Shown here piece by piece: positions 9,690-49,353 of a DNA stretch of 64,000 bases. Where the stretch lies: NCBI GenBank assembly GCA_023954155.1, contig JAMLIO010000004.1, positions 188,436 to 252,435 on the forward strand, written 5' to 3'. Each line of letters opens with the position of its first letter. Positions within the stretch are counted from its first letter, which is position 1. The DNA comes from Pseudobdellovibrionaceae bacterium (GTDB taxonomy: Bacteria; Bdellovibrionota; Bdellovibrionia; Bdellovibrionales; UBA1609). The translations under genes were made by a program, and so were the position numbers. The notes under the pieces were generated by a model, which was not told where the DNA came from, did no database searches, and worked only from the letters and a program-made list of their open reading frames with translations.

Positions 9690-9810
9690 GCAGTGTGAGG
9701 TCTACGCCTTGTGACCTGCCCCCGAAGTATGAACCAAATACTAAGAGACTATCTCATAGCTATGATCTATCCCCATCGACAAAGCCAGTATCTTTCTGAG
9801 TGACAACGCA

Positions 9811-10656
9811 TTAACAAGCGGTCTGTTTATTCATTCTTCTCCTAGCAAATTCTCTTGGTGTCAAGTTGCCTATTGATGAATGAGGTCTCCAATTGTTATA
9901 TTCTATACGCCATCTTTCCGCCTTTCTTTGGAAGTCCTCAAGGCTTGAAAAGAGATTTGCATTTAAAAACTCATCCCTAAGTCTACCGTTAAACGATTCT
10001 ATGTGCCCATTTTCTGTAGGCTTTCCAGGTCTAATAAAATGTAACTTTACTTCATTTATATAAGCCCACTGATCAAGTTTTTTTGATGTAAATTCACTCC
10101 CATTGTCTACACATATAACCTCTGGAATTCCTCTGAAAATTTTTAAACGCTCTAGTGTTTCTATAACCTGTTCTGATTTAAGGCCATACCCAGAATCAAT
10201 TGCTAGGCTTTCTCGACTCAACTTATCAACTATGGTTAACATCCGTATCTTACGGCCATCAATCAACTGGTCATGCACAAAATCCATTGTCCAAACTTGA
10301 TTAAGATTGGTCGGGGTAGGAGGTGTAACTCTTAGCTCAGTTGTAAATTTTCTGCGACGAACTTTCTTGGTGCGTACCCATAACTGCTCTTCCTTATAAA
10401 TCCTATGAACCCTTTTGTGATTAACCTTCCAGCCTTCACGCCTAAGTAAGACATGTATGCGTGGACAGCCATAACGTGGCCTTGATTGCGCTATGCTGAT
10501 GATCTTTTCCCGAACTGCACGATCATCTCTAGGGTGGTTCTTATAGTCATATGTTGACCGAGCCAGACGCAATAACCTGCAAACTCTACGATGGCTCACG
10601 CGAAAATTCTTGACCAACCACTGACCAAGATCGCGTCTCTTAGCAGGTTTTAGAGC
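9811..10656 (-). CDS. IS3-family transposase OrfB, made by -1 frameshift
   Basis: The DDE integrase residues lie in [19 protein letters not shown] and [15 protein letters not shown], and WRPHSSIG closes the domain. An internal TTG at 10617 could start translation, but the frame extends in a conserved way ([14 protein letters not shown]) up to the orfA slippery site A AAA AAG at 10656-10662. The likely product is therefore the OrfAB fusion. No stop or frameshift disrupts it. Confidence 0.9.
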
Positions 10657-11161: not shown

Positions 11162-11926
11162 ATGAGACATTTGGCGTTTAACCTAATGTATTTGATCTTA
11201 GGACAGATTTTAGTTGTTAATGCTTGGGCACTTGATCCGAATGCGTGTAAGAATCCGACTAAGGATGGCTATACTGTGCAAAATGTGAACAGCAAAGATC
11301 CTATCAGTTTGATGTCTCATTCTGATGCAGTTAAACTTTTTAATGAGCTTAAGAATCCAAAATATAAAATTCCATATTTGAATGCCAATAACAATTGTGA
11401 TGCTCGAGGGCACCAGATTTCTCAAATTTTAAAAAGCAAATATAATATTTCTACCATTAAAATTTTTGTTGAAGCTGTAAATGAAGTCCATTACGGCGCG
11501 GGAGCCCCATCTTTTATGCGTGATGATTTTGTAGATGATGGTTCACGTGTTGTATTAGACGCCAAAGATATTTTAGGAAACTATCACACATGGAGCTACC
11601 ACACCGCTCCTGCCGTATGTGTAAGAAAAAATGGCAAAGATGAACTGTACGTCTTTGATCTCTCTTTATTCTCTGAACCTGTTCCCTATAACACATGGAA
11701 AAATAAAATGACTGACGGATTGTCACCATCAGCCTACGAAGTTTCAAGCACAAACATGTACTCTATGATGAGACAAGGCCCCGATCAACCTGCAAAAACT
11801 CAATTTGAAAATTGGGAAACCTCAATGATGAAAGATGCTCTAAGTAAGGACTGGAGCGGTCACCAAAGACTTCTAAGACAACACCCCACAGCCTCAAGTC
11901 CCACCCATCAAACCACCATCAACTAA
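11162..11926 (+). CDS. Exported protein-glutaminase-like (deamidase) enzyme
   Basis: The start is at MRHLAFNLMY (11162), with GGGGG 5 nt upstream; the longer frame to 11081 adds an unconvincing leader. The protein has 254 residues and a signal peptide ending NAWA (residue 23). The Cys-His-Asp triad of bacterial protein glutaminase is readable: NNCDARGHQI (Cys79), WSYHTAPAVCV (His147) and LYVFDLSLF (Asp166), with a nearby Trp (YNTW). This family deamidates glutamine side chains in proteins after secretion. Target proteins are unknown. The stop codon is the first triplet of a giant inverted repeat. Confidence 0.75.
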   Translation: MRHLAFNLMYLILGQILVVNAWALDPNACKNPTKDGYTVQNVNSKDPISLMSHSDAVKLFNELKNPKYKIPYLNANNNCDARGHQISQILKSKYNISTIKIFVEAVNEVHYGAGAPSFMRDDFVDDGSRVVLDAKDILGNYHTWSYHTAPAVCVRKNGKDELYVFDLSLFSEPVPYNTWKNKMTDGLSPSAYEVSSTNMYSMMRQGPDQPAKTQFENWETSMMKDALSKDWSGHQRLLRQHPTASSPTHQTTIN

Positions 11927-12179
11927 ACTCAGACTCTTTGCACTTTCGGAAAGGGTTTTGGAATTTAAAATATAATTCTAGATATACTTTCAAATGGCCC
12001 CAGACGATTGCGGGTGCAAAGCGTCTTCGGCACGCGTTACCCTCTGGGCCCTTTCGGCCCCACAGGCCAACGCGTGTCGGATACGCATTGCTCGCCTCGG
12101 AGGGACCATTTGAAAGTATATCTAGAATTATATTTTAAATTCCAAAACCCTTTCCGAAAGTGCAAAGAGTCTGAGTTTA
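11924..12179. repeat. Giant hairpin element E1 (74-bp perfect arms)
   Basis: The left arm 11924-11997 and right arm 12106-12179 are perfect reverse complements over 74 bp. The left arm begins with the TAA stop of the upstream gene. The 108-nt centre holds GTGCAAAGCGTCTTCGG (inside 12011-12031) and GTCGGATACGCATTGCTC (12076-12093), both also present in element E2 near 25400, plus a small inner hairpin (CACGCGTT / AACGCGTG). Short ORFs across it are by-products of the repeat. As RNA it would form a very long duplex. Confidence 0.95.
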
Positions 12180-12350
12180 TAAATATGAATTAGTTTACTG
12201 GTCTTTGGTCTTAAAAGATATTGCTTAACAGAGAGTTGATTTGACCCCAGTGATGAATGCTCTGATCCTTTAATTAGAAACTCTTATATGTCGGAAATAA
12301 GGTTCGACGTTTCTACAAGCCACCATAAAAGGCTGACTAAGAGGGGTTAG
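12180..12350. other. Intergenic region before the HNH nuclease gene
   Basis: No gene is seen. Together with E1 it forms the 424-bp gap between the glutaminase-like gene and the HNH gene. It should carry the promoter of the HNH gene, but no clear -35/-10 pair stands out. Confidence 0.5.
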
Positions 12351-12857
12351 ATGATTTGTGTTCAAAAGTTTTGTCGTGTCGCTAGTAGTGTATTCTTTAG
12401 TTTATTCCTTATTCTCCCACAAATTTCACAAGCTTTTCCTTTGATTCCTGATCGGGATATGACTCCTGGGCATATTTGTGAAGTCAGTGATCCTGATTTT
12501 AAAGAGTACCGTTATTACGAGCAAATTCCTTATTGTTATAGAAATGTAAGTAGCTCTCGAAAAAAACAGATTTATGCTAAATATCGAATCCCTAAATCTT
12601 GCCAACATAGATATACCATTGATCATCTGATCCCCTTATCTATCGGGGGAAGCAATACAGATGAAAATTTATGGCCTGAACATGTGTTAGTGAAGGCCAC
12701 CAGAGCCAATCTTGAAAATCAAATTTATTGGTCGTTACGACGAGGTGAGATCACACAAGAAGAAGCAGTTGAGACTGTTTTGCTTGAAAAGAACAATGTA
12801 GTTCAGGTGCTCCAGTCTCACAATTTTAAAAGCGGCTGCGATATCCCCACGCTATAA
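12351..12857 (+). CDS. Exported HNH-family nuclease
   Basis: This 168-residue protein follows GAGGGG. It has a signal peptide ending ISQA (residue 28). The HNH motif is TIDHLIPLSIGG, then SNTDENLWPEH (His92, Asn106, His111), the metal-binding nuclease fold. Five Cys in the mature part suggest disulfides. As an exported nuclease it probably degrades DNA or RNA outside the cytoplasm, for nutrition or, in a predator, prey nucleic acid; that role is inferred. Its substrate preference cannot be read from the sequence. Confidence 0.85.
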   Translation: MICVQKFCRVASSVFFSLFLILPQISQAFPLIPDRDMTPGHICEVSDPDFKEYRYYEQIPYCYRNVSSSRKKQIYAKYRIPKSCQHRYTIDHLIPLSIGGSNTDENLWPEHVLVKATRANLENQIYWSLRRGEITQEEAVETVLLEKNNVVQVLQSHNFKSGCDIPTL

Positions 12858-24135: not shown

Positions 24136-25269
24136 ATGTCCGCAGCTCTGCGTGGAGTTTTATTGATCGATAAGCCGAAAGGTTTTACCAGCCATGATGT
24201 TGTGGCGCGTGTTCGTCGACTCTTTAAAACTAAAGAAGTAGGGCATGCAGGGACCTTAGATCCCATGGCTGAAGGTTTACTGGTGATCTTGCTCGGCGAG
24301 GCGACCAAGCTTTCACCCTATATCACCGCTGATGATAAGAGTTATGTGGCCCAAATGGATTTTGGATATTCCACAGACACTTTGGACACCGAAGGGGAAG
24401 TGACGTTTCGCTCAGAAAGTATGGACCTTAATCAAACGGCCATCACTGAAGCCGCTCAAAAACTAGTGGGTGACCTAAGGCTTCCTGTCCCCATTTACTC
24501 TGCCGTGAAATTGCATGGCCGTAAACTTTACGAATACGCTCGTTCAGGACAAGAGGTCGACATTCCTATAAGAACCATGAGGTTTTACAGCTCAGAAGTG
24601 GTAGAGGTTTCCCCTAAGTCTTTAAAGGTGAAACTGGCTTGCGAAAAAGGAGCCTACATTCGAGCTTGGGTCGGTCAACTGGGTGAGGATTTAGGCGTAG
24701 GAGCCACAATGACAGCTCTTGTGCGACAAAGCTCAGGCCCTTTTGATCTAAGCCAAAGCATCAGCCTCGAAGCCCTCACCAAGCTGGCTGAAGAGAAGGG
24801 CGTCTCACTGATCCATCGCAAAGAATCACAACCTCCACAGCCCACCCAGATCCCAGCCGCCCCCTTAAGCTCACGCATACAAACTCTGATGACGCCCCCT
24901 TCTCAGACACAAGAGACAAGAAAAGCCGCGCCTCTGGCATCACAACCGAGGGAATCAGTAACAGATCAAGCTTTAGAGGCTTTTTTAGATGAAGTTCAAA
25001 AATCTTCGTATTTTATCCCCATCGAGCAGTGCCTCTCAGGCCGCTTTTATCGTTTGGACAGCTTTGAAGAGCGCCTGATGAAAAACGGCCAAATCGCCCA
25101 CTCCTTAGAAAAAAGGCTTGTACCTCAGGTGCATGAAGTCTTACGCACTCAAAAAGACCAACTTATCCGTATCTTCACCCACAAAACAGGCGAAGGCGAC
25201 AAACTTAAAGCGCTCATCACCATCCGCCACGACCAGCCCCGCCCCAAACTCTTAAGAGTCTTTAATTAG
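24136..25269 (+). CDS. truB: tRNA pseudouridine-55 synthase TruB with a Pro-rich insertion
   Basis: This 377-residue enzyme makes pseudouridine 55 in tRNA. LLIDKPKGFTSHDVVARVR, HAGTLDPMAEGLL (catalytic Asp) and SYVAQMDFGYSTDTLDTEG mark the catalytic domain; ACEKGAYIRAW follows. Residues about 232-290 form an insertion rich in Pro, Gln, Ser and Thr (QPPQPTQIPAAPL), making the protein longer than the usual about 300 residues. The C-terminal domain (SSYFIPIEQCL) then resumes. The stop codon's last base starts element E2, which separates truB from rpsO. Confidence 0.93.
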   Translation: MSAALRGVLLIDKPKGFTSHDVVARVRRLFKTKEVGHAGTLDPMAEGLLVILLGEATKLSPYITADDKSYVAQMDFGYSTDTLDTEGEVTFRSESMDLNQTAITEAAQKLVGDLRLPVPIYSAVKLHGRKLYEYARSGQEVDIPIRTMRFYSSEVVEVSPKSLKVKLACEKGAYIRAWVGQLGEDLGVGATMTALVRQSSGPFDLSQSISLEALTKLAEEKGVSLIHRKESQPPQPTQIPAAPLSSRIQTLMTPPSQTQETRKAAPLASQPRESVTDQALEAFLDEVQKSSYFIPIEQCLSGRFYRLDSFEERLMKNGQIAHSLEKRLVPQVHEVLRTQKDQLIRIFTHKTGEGDKLKALITIRHDQPRPKLLRVFN

Positions 25270-25529
25270 GCCCCAGCCTTAGAGATTTTCTAGTTTAAAT
25301 TCCTATATACCTTCGAAAGGGACCTCCGAAGTGAGCAATGCGTATCCGACTTGCGGCATAAGTTTTGAATTGAAATTTAGCTTGGGTGAAGGCCCAAAGG
25401 GGTTTCACCCAAGCTAAATTTCAATTCAAAACTTATGACGAAAGCCGAAGACGCTTTGCACCCGTCTCGGTTGCGGCCCTTTCGAAGGTATATAGGAATT
25501 TAAACTAGAAAATCTCTAAGGCTGGGGCC
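25269..25529. repeat. Giant double-hairpin element E2 (53-bp outer, 34-bp inner arms)
   Basis: The outer arms 25269-25321 and 25477-25529 are perfect over 53 bp. An inner perfect hairpin has arms 25357-25390 and 25404-25437 with a 13-nt loop. Between outer and inner arms lie the reverse complements of the two core blocks of E1: 25333-25350 and 25444-25464. The left outer arm begins at the last base of the truB stop. The outer arms differ from those of E1 apart from an inner-end motif (GTATAT next to TTCGAA or TTTGAA). Confidence 0.95.
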
Positions 25530-39451: not shown

Positions 39452-39468
39452 AATCACTGCACTAATGT

Positions 39469-39563
39469 GGTTCTAGGTTCTAGGTTCTAGGTTCTAGGTT
39501 CTAGGTTCTAGGTTCTAGGTTCTAGGTTCTAGGTTCTAGGTTCTAGGTTCTAGGTTCTAGGTT
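39469..39563 (+). repeat. Heptamer tandem repeat (GGTTCTA) x 13.5
   Basis: Thirteen perfect copies of GGTTCTA plus GGTT run without interruption over 95 bp, between the M16 gene and dut. They end 60 bp before the dut start, inside its probable promoter or 5' leader. Perfect short tandem repeats change length by slippage, so this is a likely variable-number locus. Confidence 0.97.
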
Positions 39564-39622
39564 TATTGAGGCCGCATAGAGATGTGTGCCGTCGTCCCGA
39601 AGAAGTCCGTGGAGGGAGAATC

Positions 39623-46073: not shown

Positions 46074-48287
46074 ATGCAGCCTGAGAACTTAAAGGACAGA
46101 AACTATTCTCCAGAAAATATCGACGAGCTGTGCGAGCTTGTTCGCTACATTCATCCCAAAGCAAATATTGAATGGTTACGTCGAGTCTATGAGTACTCAG
46201 AAAAGGCTCACGCGGGTCAAATCCGACGCAGTGGAGAACCCTATATCTCCCATCCCTTGGGGGTAGCAGGCATTTTGACCCATTTGCGCATGGACATGGA
46301 CACCATTGCCACGGGTCTTTTGCACGACACCGTCGAGGACACTGAAGCCACTCTAGAGGACATTCGACAAAATTTTGGGGACTCGGTGGCTTATCTTGTG
46401 GATGGGGTCACAAAGATCTCTCAGATGAAGTTTAGAAACACCCATGAAAAGCAGGGCGAGAACATTCGCAAAATGATTGTGTCTATGGGTAAAGACGTGC
46501 GTGTGGTTTTAGTAAAACTGGCGGACCGTCTGCACAACATGCGCACCCTGCACCACATGTCTTTTGAAAAGCAAGAGCGCATCGCTAAAGAAACATTAGA
46601 TATTTATGCTCCTCTTGCCAGCCGTCTGGGGATCAACTGGCTTAAGGTGGAACTTGAGGATTTAAGCTTTAGGTTCTCTCAACCCGAATCTTATTATGCT
46701 TTGGTGCAAAAGGTTCAGCAGAAAAAAAATGAACGCGAAAAGTACATCGAGGATGTAAAGCGTGAAATTTCAAAGGAACTGGTTAAAAGATTAAAAACTA
46801 AATTTCGTGTTACGGGTCGCCCCAAGCACTTGTACTCGATTCATAAAAAGATGGTCTCAAGCAATATCGAATACGAACAGGTGTTTGATGTTCTGGCCTT
46901 TAGAGTGATTGTGCAGACCATTTCTGAATGTTATGAAGCTTTGGGGCACATTCACGCCATTTGGCGTCCTATCCCTGGGCGGTTTAAAGACTTTATTGCC
47001 ATGCCCAAGGCCAACAACTATCAGAGTCTGCACACTACTGTGATTGGCCCTGATCGCAATCGTTTAGAAATTCAAATTCGCACAGAAGAGATGCACCTGA
47101 TCGCTGAGCAAGGGATTGCCGCCCACTGGAAGTACAAGGAAGGGGATTCTGTTGGGGGAGGCAGTGGCTCGACGGGGAACTCTATTGAAAAGTTCAATTG
47201 GTTGCGTGATCTTGTGGCCTTACACCAACAGACAGACGACTCCAATGAATTTTTAGAAAACATCAAGTCAGATCTTTTTGAAAGTGAAATTTATGTGTTT
47301 ACCCCTAATGGGGATGTTAAAGAGTTTCCCGAAGGGGCCACACCTATAGACTTTGCTTTTTCTGTGCACACAGAGGTGGGCATTCGTTGCGTGGGTGCAA
47401 AGGTCAATGGCAAAGGTGTGCCTTTAAAATACAAATTGCAAAACGGGGACTTTGTTGAAATTTTGACTTCAAAAGTGCAGCAACCCTCTAAAGACTGGCT
47501 CAAGATGTGTGTCACCTCCAGAGCCAAAACCAAAATTCGTGCTTATATTAAAACCGAAGAGCGCAAAAAAGCTTTAGAGGTGGGAGCGGCCCTTTTAGAT
47601 AAAACTTTAAAACGGGCAGGACTCAACCTCACAAAATTGGCAAAAGAGCCCGAGTTTGACAAATTTATGAAAGACAGGGGTTGTAGCACTTTAGACGAAT
47701 TTAAAGTGCAAGTGGGTTATGGAAAAATTCTTCCCAAAGCTGTGGTGGAAGCTTTTGCTCCCACCACTGTAGAACCCGAGGCTGAAGAGACTTTCATTCA
47801 AAAGGCGTTTAAATCTGCGATTCAAAAACGTAAAAAGACCTCTTCACTGGTCACCGTGGATGGGATGGATGAATTCTTAGTGCATTATGCAAAATGCTGT
47901 AACCCCATTCCTGGAGACAGTATTATTGGTTTTATCACTCTAGGACGTGGGATCACCATTCACCGTGCGGATTGCCCCAGAGCTTTCGAAATGGATCAAG
48001 CCCGTCGTGTAGACGTGGCGTGGAACAAAGGCCCTGATCAAATCCAAAGAACAGTGCGAGTAAGAGTGATCAGCTTAGACAAACGAGGTCTACTGATACG
48101 TATGACCGAAGCCTTTAACGCCAGAGGTGTCGACATCCACAACGCCCAAATCCGCACCACCAGAGACAACAAAGCAATATGTTTATTCGACGTCACCGTC
48201 AAAGACACCTCTCACCTCGCAGAAGTTATGAACGACCTACAAAAAATCCCAGACGTCATAGGTGTAACCAGAATCGCCTCCACTTAA
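46074..48287 (+). CDS. rel: Bifunctional (p)ppGpp synthetase/hydrolase (RelA/SpoT family)
   Basis: This 737-residue enzyme is the stringent-response controller. The hydrolase domain is intact (HAGQIRRSGEPYISHP, LLHDTVEDTEAT with the HD, KLADRLHNMRTL). The synthetase domain has HSIHKKM, RFKDFIAMPK and NNYQSLHTTVIGP. TGS, a Cys-containing region (YAKCCNPIPGDSIIGF) and an ACT domain (IRTTRDNKAICLFDVTV) complete it. Element E3 starts 15 bp after its stop. Confidence 0.95.
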   Translation: MQPENLKDRNYSPENIDELCELVRYIHPKANIEWLRRVYEYSEKAHAGQIRRSGEPYISHPLGVAGILTHLRMDMDTIATGLLHDTVEDTEATLEDIRQNFGDSVAYLVDGVTKISQMKFRNTHEKQGENIRKMIVSMGKDVRVVLVKLADRLHNMRTLHHMSFEKQERIAKETLDIYAPLASRLGINWLKVELEDLSFRFSQPESYYALVQKVQQKKNEREKYIEDVKREISKELVKRLKTKFRVTGRPKHLYSIHKKMVSSNIEYEQVFDVLAFRVIVQTISECYEALGHIHAIWRPIPGRFKDFIAMPKANNYQSLHTTVIGPDRNRLEIQIRTEEMHLIAEQGIAAHWKYKEGDSVGGGSGSTGNSIEKFNWLRDLVALHQQTDDSNEFLENIKSDLFESEIYVFTPNGDVKEFPEGATPIDFAFSVHTEVGIRCVGAKVNGKGVPLKYKLQNGDFVEILTSKVQQPSKDWLKMCVTSRAKTKIRAYIKTEERKKALEVGAALLDKTLKRAGLNLTKLAKEPEFDKFMKDRGCSTLDEFKVQVGYGKILPKAVVEAFAPTTVEPEAEETFIQKAFKSAIQKRKKTSSLVTVDGMDEFLVHYAKCCNPIPGDSIIGFITLGRGITIHRADCPRAFEMDQARRVDVAWNKGPDQIQRTVRVRVISLDKRGLLIRMTEAFNARGVDIHNAQIRTTRDNKAICLFDVTVKDTSHLAEVMNDLQKIPDVIGVTRIAST

Positions 48288-48302: not shown

Positions 48303-48459
48303 CTCTAGTCCTTTTAGTTGGGGTTTTGTTTTTAAGTATATAATCAAAATGCGAGTTCGGCTTGGCGTGCTTTTGCGAATGCAAAGGCATGCCAAACGTC
48401 ACTGTCTGAGCATTTTGAATATATACTTAAAAACAAAACCCCAACTAAAAGGACTAGAG
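48303..48459. repeat. Giant hairpin element E3 (50-bp arms, one mismatch)
   Basis: Arms 48303-48352 and 48410-48459 are reverse complements over 50 bp with one mismatch. The right arm ends inside the last sense codon (CTC before TAG) of the minus-strand gene at 48454. The 57-nt centre folds into an imperfect hairpin (GGCTTGGCGTGC / GGCATGCCAAAC, loop near 48375). The E1/E2 core blocks are absent. The inner arm motif (CATTTTGAATATATA) resembles that of E1 and E2. Confidence 0.93.
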
Positions 48460-49353
48460 CTTCATCCCGAGGCCTGCGCGGATAGAGATCATGCTCGTCT
48501 TCACATCGTCACTAGGTGGAATGAGGTTGTACTCGGCTAAGACGGGAATAAAAAACTTATCGTTAATGAACCAGTCAAGGCCACCGCCCACTTGAAAGAC
48601 CATGGTGCTAGAGATGTCGCTCTTGACTACGGCGTTGGTGTTGCCTGTGTTAAGAGGGAATAAAAGACCTGCGCCTACACCACCCCAAAATCTCATGTTG
48701 GAGTCAGGGTTAAAAATATAGCGCCCCCAAATGTCGGCAGCTAAATAGTTGATGGACATCACACAATTGACCACTCCAATACATGTTCTATTGCCTTCTT
48801 TGGCCTCAAAAGGTTGTGTTCCCACATATCCTCTAAGGAAGATGTGATTGGTGAGACTGTAATCTCCCATGGCCTTGATACTAATACCACTTCCACTTAA
48901 AGAGGCTTTTTCGCCAGTGTTAAAGCTCACATTGGCAGAACTTTGTACCATTCCCAGTACTCCACCCACAGCCAACTCTTTGTTACGTCGGATGGCTTTC
49001 TTTTTGCCACCACCCTCATCGTAAGAGTACTGCTCGTAAGCGGCTTTTTTGGCTACGTTTGATTTTTTCTTTGAAGGACGAAGAGCAAGCTCTGCGCCTT
49101 TAATGGCTTTTCCTTTGAGCAGCATCCCGATAGCTTTGTTGCCTTGCACTTTTGTGATTCTAATCACACCAGTTCGTTTCCCATTGTAGGTGGTGTAATA
49201 TAGTTTTCCGCGCTGAACGTTCCCTTTAACTAAAACTTTATTATTTTTAACAGCTGCAACAGAGGCTGCAAAGCTGGGTACGCTAAATAAAAACAGGCTT
49301 ACAAAAATAAATAAAATCGTTAGATTTTGCGTGCGGGCAAAGGTGGACCTCAT
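48454..49353 (-). CDS. Exported beta-barrel protein, unknown
   Basis: This 299-residue protein has a signal peptide (LTILFIFVSLFLFSVPSFAA). A basic stretch of about 110 residues (KLYYTTYNGKRTGVIRITKVQGN) has small beta repeats, then a Lys/Arg linker. The C-terminal 165 residues alternate barrel-like strands (IFLRGYVGTQPFEA, FWGGVGAGLLFPL, FQVGGGLDWFINDKFFIPVLAEY). The overall layout resembles the 40360 protein. The ssb gene lies just upstream on the same strand. Element E3 lies at its 3' end. Confidence 0.7.
   Translation of the reverse strand: MRSTFARTQNLTILFIFVSLFLFSVPSFAASVAAVKNNKVLVKGNVQRGKLYYTTYNGKRTGVIRITKVQGNKAIGMLLKGKAIKGAELALRPSKKKSNVAKKAAYEQYSYDEGGGKKKAIRRNKELAVGGVLGMVQSSANVSFNTGEKASLSGSGISIKAMGDYSLTNHIFLRGYVGTQPFEAKEGNRTCIGVVNCVMSINYLAADIWGRYIFNPDSNMRFWGGVGAGLLFPLNTGNTNAVVKSDISSTMVFQVGGGLDWFINDKFFIPVLAEYNLIPPSDDVKTSMISIRAGLGMKL

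Follow-up and report, generated by a model that had tools for sequence, protein, structure and literature searches.

Near-perfect, locus-specific hairpin arms flank a dispersed palindromic repeat in a Pseudobdellovibrionaceae genome

We analyzed a 64,000-nt stretch of DNA from a Pseudobdellovibrionaceae bacterium (contig JAMLIO010000004.1, positions 188,436 to 252,435), hereafter called the window. Within it, a giant hairpin, E3, occupies the gap between a convergent gene pair, a RelA/SpoT homologue and a 299-aa ORF. The best-matching named relatives of the RelA protein come from Oligoflexia and Bdellovibrionaceae assemblies (60–63% identity). An inverted-repeat search placed the E3 arms at 48303–48352 and 48410–48459, each of 50 nt, 98% complementary and separated by a 57-nt spacer, with the sole mismatch at position 48343. 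Folded as RNA, the element reached –106.9 kcal/mol versus –37.5 ± 3.8 kcal/mol for 200 dinucleotide shuffles, none of which was as good (z = –18.4). Search and fold both confirm an earlier note on this DNA, which had described 50-bp arms with one mismatch. The conserved repeat spans ~48337–48425, with the inner ~16 bp of each arm belonging to the repeat and locus-specific sequence confined to 48303–48336 and 48426–48459. The features of the locus, and two further hairpins of the window, are as follows.

46074–48287, + strand: RelA/SpoT-type (p)ppGpp synthetase/hydrolase (Pfam RelA_SpoT, HD_4, TGS and ACT); 15 nt separate its stop from the left arm.
48303–48336, + strand: left outer arm, a locus-specific (host-like) inverted repeat that is not common to other copies.
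48337–48351, + strand: proximal stem, 5′ side; conserved repeat, covarying between copies (alignment A1 and pair counts).
48351–48366, + strand: conserved block 1, GCGAGTTCGGCTTGGC, including at 48352–48360 the family-wide loop strand CGAGTTCGG, found across genera.
48367–48390, + strand: apical stem-loop; sequence varies among copies, pairing is preserved.
48391–48411, + strand: conserved block 2, GCCAAACGTCACTGTCTGAGC, including at 48403–48411 the family-wide loop strand TGTCTGAGC.
48410–48425, + strand: proximal stem, 3′ side (alignment A1 and pair counts).
48426–48459, + strand: right outer arm, which copies the left in inverted form and in its terminal 6 bases has the final codon and stop of the minus-strand ORF.
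48454–49353, – strand: convergent 299-aa ORF without a Pfam family; its TAG stop lies inside the right arm.
11924–12179, + strand: E1, with a core class other than that of E3 and the same kind of giant arms; one arm contains the TAA of the upstream gene.
25269–25529, – strand: E2, of the E1 core class, with a nested inner hairpin; the final base of the upstream stop codon is also the first of its arm.

The product of the 299-aa ORF ends in ...GLGMKL, and the terminal CTC TAG (48454–48459) is provided by the hairpin arm. Outer-membrane barrels usually end in an aromatic residue; if this ORF encodes such a barrel, its last codon may have been overwritten by the arm. Rfam 15 gave no match at E3 at the gathering score. 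Permissive matches were to microRNA precursors, far below that score, and were set aside as an effect of long hairpins. An intrinsic terminator at E3 was rejected as well, there being no G+C-rich stem directly followed by a T tract. Elsewhere in the window, a purine riboswitch lies at 12262–12359, ~80 nt downstream of E1, and a tandem array of a 7-bp unit (GGTTCTA) at 39455–39584. Similar 7-bp repeats (GAATTTA) occur within some hairpin arms; at C2:58550 the arms differ by one unit. Related direct repeats ~9.6 kb apart (132–497 and 9712–10135) resemble the ends of two insertion-sequence copies.

E3 is one copy of a dispersed non-coding palindromic repeat family. A search of the whole genome (G000; 2.44 Mb, 15 contigs) with E3 returned ~40 places, and a 19-nt core block, with ≤3 mismatches allowed, defined a class of 42 sites with one ~80-nt core; the reversed control gave none. 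At 35 of these sites the block, AATGCGAGTTCGGCTTGGC, matches exactly. E3 copies are intergenic. With the sites placed side by side, the middle ~80 nt is nearly constant; outside it the sequence is site-specific yet, at almost every site, an inverted repeat that is near-perfect over 30 to 100 bp. Two exceptions stand out. At C2:58902, an E3 core has arms unpaired beyond TATATA, possibly exchanged with another copy by inversion. At C5:770 (G000:C5:757-841), the core is symmetrical, its left half occurring twice, inverted, between unpaired outer flanks; it looks like a recombination product of two elements. Some exceptional sites are at contig ends, and contigs G000:C2, C7, C8 and C10 start inside E3 cores. 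Assembly thus breaks at the hairpins, and the true copy number may exceed our count. The strict own-genome pattern had no match in plasmids, phages or genome contigs of 84,980 species, and the limited set of literature search results that we read held no description of an E3-type repeat.

A covarying stem flanked by two invariant blocks makes up the core: variation is absent from most columns, whereas those of the apical stem are free to vary but covary. In alignment A1, 98.2% of cells are paired and double changes occur in 16 of 34 pairs, with none of 500 shuffles as good. In the proximal-stem columns, double changes are many and single changes few. Apical-stem wobbles are exclusively G·T (36 versus 0 A·C), indicating that one particular strand folds, the one reading GCGAGTTCGG...TGTCTGAGC, as RNA or single-stranded DNA. 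The pattern suggests, with the same even confidence that we place in the overall explanation below, that the ~80-nt core functions when folded from a single strand, whether of RNA or of DNA, and that GCGAGTTCGG and TGTCTGAGC then form an asymmetric internal loop, closed by the proximal stem and capped by the freely varying stem. Cores in sense and in antisense to the facing gene are nearly equal in number (E3, 9:7; E1/E2 class, 7:6), a balance that speaks against a cis-acting RNA of the gene. Nor did we see a clear bias of core orientation to local GC skew (21:11).

At least three core classes exist in this genome: E3 (42 sites), E1/E2 (about two dozen places) and E4 (CCTCCAGCAAGCGGGACGCG ... 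TGCTGGCAGAGCCCATGGATGGGCGT; 18 copies, L231–L248, e.g. G000:C14:11603-11775 and G000:C4:92339-92566). Whole-genome searches with E1 and E2 do not return the E3 site, and the E3 covariance model misses three other E1/E2-class loci, in agreement with the earlier observation that the E3 centre lacks the E1/E2 blocks. This covariance model (R1), built from own-genome E3 copies, had no match at the E1/E2 or E4 loci tested. About six E4 copies have their arms and part of one flank in common, which suggests joint spread of core and arms in this subgroup; arms can travel with a core. In 385 kb of this genome, comprising stretches around elements, every hairpin with arms of ≥35 bp carries one of the three cores. 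This supports a single process with exchangeable cores. The earlier proposal of two subfamilies served by one mechanism was therefore probably right about the process, given that giant, mostly locus-specific arms are common to several cores, and wrong about the number of classes.

The same survey bears on whether giant hairpins were there first and a MITE-like repeat inserted into their loops. Such insertion would account for locus-specific palindromic flanks, and some insertion sequences do target palindromes. But the 385 kb held no hairpin with arms of ≥35 bp that lacks the three cores, and the only giant hairpin in 335 kb of other genomes also bears the core motif, making this scenario very unlikely.

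A motif at the inner ends of the arms had been suggested as common to E1, E2 and E3. The three strings quoted are all present in the sequence, but the motif did not hold up across classes. With E3 inner-arm matrices, E1 (9.2 bits) and E2 (8.1 bits) proved to be the two best of 19 E1/E2-class copies; most of the others score near shuffled sequence (class mean –0.8 versus shuffled mean –2.7), and E4 copies and E3 relatives from other genera have other inner ends. E1/E2-class inner ends do score slightly above outer-arm controls (P = 0.0015), a difference due mostly to TATA plus TTCGA. As a predictor of arm boundaries, a use also put forward for it, the motif has partial value: within the E3 class it marks the core/arm junction, where it corresponds to the proximal stem of the core, but it is silent on the outer end of the arm, which follows stop codons.

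Arms of the E3 class differ from locus to locus in this genome and are not part of the repeat. Aligned arm pairs (n = 1,440) include 33 mismatches, and within the inner 30 bp the rate is ~0.7%. Mismatches of the A·C type (14) are not rarer than G·T (7), and the arms thus show no RNA-type tolerance of wobbles. Arm extents are tied to stop codons: hairpin half-length falls within 15 nt of the distance to the facing stop in 36 of 56 cases, versus a mean of 18 and a maximum of 33 in 10,000 permutations. Between convergent genes, both ends of the hairpin are usually near both stops. Because the gene ends come from a simple coding-score caller, individual gene calls may be wrong, whereas stop codons are unambiguous.

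One explanation for such placement is that the hairpins are host-useful 3′ elements, either bidirectional terminators or protectors of mRNA 3′ ends, whose arms are kept by selection for pairing. Consistent with this, a facing gene 3′ end is found at 52 of 60 hairpins, many of them between convergent genes—although, with loci chosen around known elements, these counts are not a random genome sample—and the arms are T-rich when read toward the core. However, just 3 of 59 arms, read in the direction of the core, contain terminator-like signals, compared with 11 of 102 control gene ends. The indifference of arm mismatches to G·T and of core orientation to gene sense (9:7) also speaks against a 3′ element. 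Moreover, point selection could not make dozens of unrelated, near-perfect arms of 30–100 bp. On balance, we regard this explanation as quite improbable.

Several arms hold recognizable gene ends. In the E4-class element at C4:92339, the arm takes in the final codons of an OppC-type permease, whose alignment to solved OppC extends to residue 257 of 260. At C6:108669, the arm holds the end of an M23 peptidase, and further arms contain the ends of MsbA-, PaaE- and YdfG-like genes. Conserved gene ends in one arm mean that this arm is native host DNA and the other its inverted copy. As in template switching, a reverse-complement copy of adjacent native sequence is present, and from this we infer a copying event. 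In another case, C4:43760, a SerA-like protein reaches the end of its family near residue 398 and then continues for ~10 residues in codons supplied by the arm, as if an inverted copy had replaced the original stop.

Was each copy made once, or does copying continue? Hairpin-primed (e.g. target-primed) integration could duplicate one flank in reverse at insertion, leaving the arms to age without homogenization. Most cores differ little from consensus, and such cores with near-identical arms are what recent insertions should look like; that one arm is native host DNA also fits. Yet core divergence and arm mismatch are uncorrelated (rho = –0.08). Of the five most diverged cores (3–9 differences in 61 columns), four have no arm mismatch, one of these with a single gap; the fifth, C6:50016, has an imperfect arm. 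Together with the paired changes of the proximal stem, where single changes are few, these mismatch-free arms favor continuing arm-to-arm copying. To judge from these sequence comparisons, arm identity is not explained by age alone. Two other findings count against a single event: arm ends abut the stops of both convergent genes, as one random copy length would not give, and no target-site duplication is seen. We therefore consider a one-time copy unlikely, if the most serious of the rival accounts.

The explanation we prefer, with about an even chance of being correct, is a REP/MITE-like, single-strand-folding repeat whose hairpin triggers copying of the adjacent host DNA by fold-back. The repeat would settle in intergenic DNA, mostly downstream of genes, as REP- or MITE-type elements do. 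It would not carry the giant outer arms; instead, the host DNA on one flank, a 3′ untranslated region and at times the last codons of a gene, would be copied inverted onto the other flank. The likeliest route is fold-back synthesis, in which the nascent strand would snap back at the core hairpin, use the flank just copied as template, and then return to the true template. Repeated events of this kind would extend the arms and maintain their identity. Copying would halt where more of it would damage coding sequence, and under this proposal the arms would consequently end at stop codons.

The means by which the repeat might move were sought among known enzymes and marks. No Y1 (HUH) transposase (PF01797) was matched in G000, nor in G036 despite its 25 pattern matches. 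Lacking both this transposase and a GTAG/CGTC end tag, the repeat was rejected as a REP/RAYT element. G000 has one reverse-transcriptase gene (RVT_1; C2:213961-214521), with a diverged E3 copy (C2:211756) ~2 kb away. RVT_1 was not found in G036, G007, G017, G038 or G042, which are incomplete genomes, and a reverse-transcriptase-driven retroelement was rejected on the grounds that this gene does not co-occur with the repeat. Flanking direct repeats, which a target-site duplication would leave, were not in excess (P = 0.58 and 0.56). At one orthologous site within a genus, G038 has an element and G018 has none, but the intergenic DNA/UTR there is unalignable and the junctions are unreadable.

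Long hairpins in E. coli are attacked by the nuclease subunit SbcD. None of 47 genomes of the family gave an SbcD match above cut-off, whereas 13 of 14 control genomes did, although a diverged SbcD could be missed. SbcD is also missing in family genomes without pattern matches, so its absence is not sufficient and is at most permissive. The lineage may tolerate long hairpins through apparent loss of SbcCD, which could thereby contribute causally.

Homologues of the repeat occur in relatives. The loop strands CGAGTTCGG and TGTCTGAGC recur there in combination with quite dissimilar stems: 10 further genomes of the family have them, as does one from a different family in the order, with up to 25 per genome and often in multiple copies. 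Model R1 recovers most of these copies, and all 48 that were inspected have inverted flanks. A looser pattern gave 10 chance matches in viral contigs, all without arms. When 335 kb of relatives' and other Bdellovibrio-group contigs was scanned for giant hairpins, a single one was found, bearing the core motif. In G001, G013, G036 and G042, arms are about 25–29 bp and mostly common to the copies; in G025, G017, G007, G038 and G005, they are generally longer and locus-specific. This is as expected if arms grow, and the simplest history suggested by these comparisons would be a compact repeat whose arms were extended with host sequence in some lineages. In G038 (L286, 1321-1456), another abundant palindromic repeat family (CCGTAGTAAGCGCAGCTTACGGTAGGGCG), present in dozens of places in that genome, lies beside an E3-type element.

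The breadth of this distribution also helps to evaluate an artefact of assembly or amplification. Whole-genome amplification yields inverted (fold-back) chimeras, and several contigs begin inside these elements. But the same design appears in 12 assemblies, elements lie inside contigs of up to 590 kb, and every giant hairpin surveyed is centered on a conserved, covarying core. We find an artefact hardly credible.

Among known systems, REP/REPIN elements with RAYT (TnpA-REP) transposases, including GTAG- and CGTC-tagged palindromic repeats (PMC3733652, PMC2817692), share with E3 many intergenic palindromic copies, conserved unpaired sequence, a variable stem and folding of one strand. The E3 repeat is much larger than these, however, and its unpaired sequences are different and family-wide (PMC3733652, PMC2817692). 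Its outer arms, moreover, are host DNA, different at every locus, and G000 has no Y1 transposase. No GTAG or CGTC tag at the end of a 20–40 bp palindrome was seen at element ends in A1, and the CGTC inside block 2 is absent from the relatives' cores. MITEs and other miniature palindromic repeats are likewise short, non-coding, dispersed and hairpin-forming, and the arms in G036 and G042 resemble ordinary shared terminal repeats. MITE terminal repeats are normally common to all copies and accompanied by target-site duplications, whereas own-genome E3 arms are locus-specific and show no duplication.

Nematomorph mitochondria have coding palindromes that are likewise long, perfect, locus-specific inverted repeats; their arms undergo concerted evolution, and template switching has been suggested for them (PMC6649704). 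Those palindromes lie inside genes and have no conserved core, whereas E3-type hairpins are centered on one and stop at genes. Template-switch mutation, which can create and maintain hairpins by making a reverse-complement copy in one event, with coupled double changes (PMC8794818), supplies the proposed copying mechanism. The events described are short and scattered; here, nearly every repeat copy bears host DNA copied over 30–100 bp.

So far, the palindromic repeats described from bacteria have had arms of their own. In this family, host DNA forms the arms, which differ at each of dozens of sites and have stop codons as their limits. A bolder reading, tentative and on present evidence rather doubtful, is that the core is recognized by a putative factor that turns the surrounding host DNA into long perfect palindromes out to the neighboring stops; the three or more cores would then be interchangeable parts of one copying process, and the family a new class of genome-shaping repeat. 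The dozens of sites are natural replicates for the origin and upkeep of perfect palindromes, in a lineage seemingly without the main hairpin nuclease, and the family-wide structural motif CGAGTTCGG / TGTCTGAGC offers a handle for seeking a binding partner or a mobilizing enzyme.
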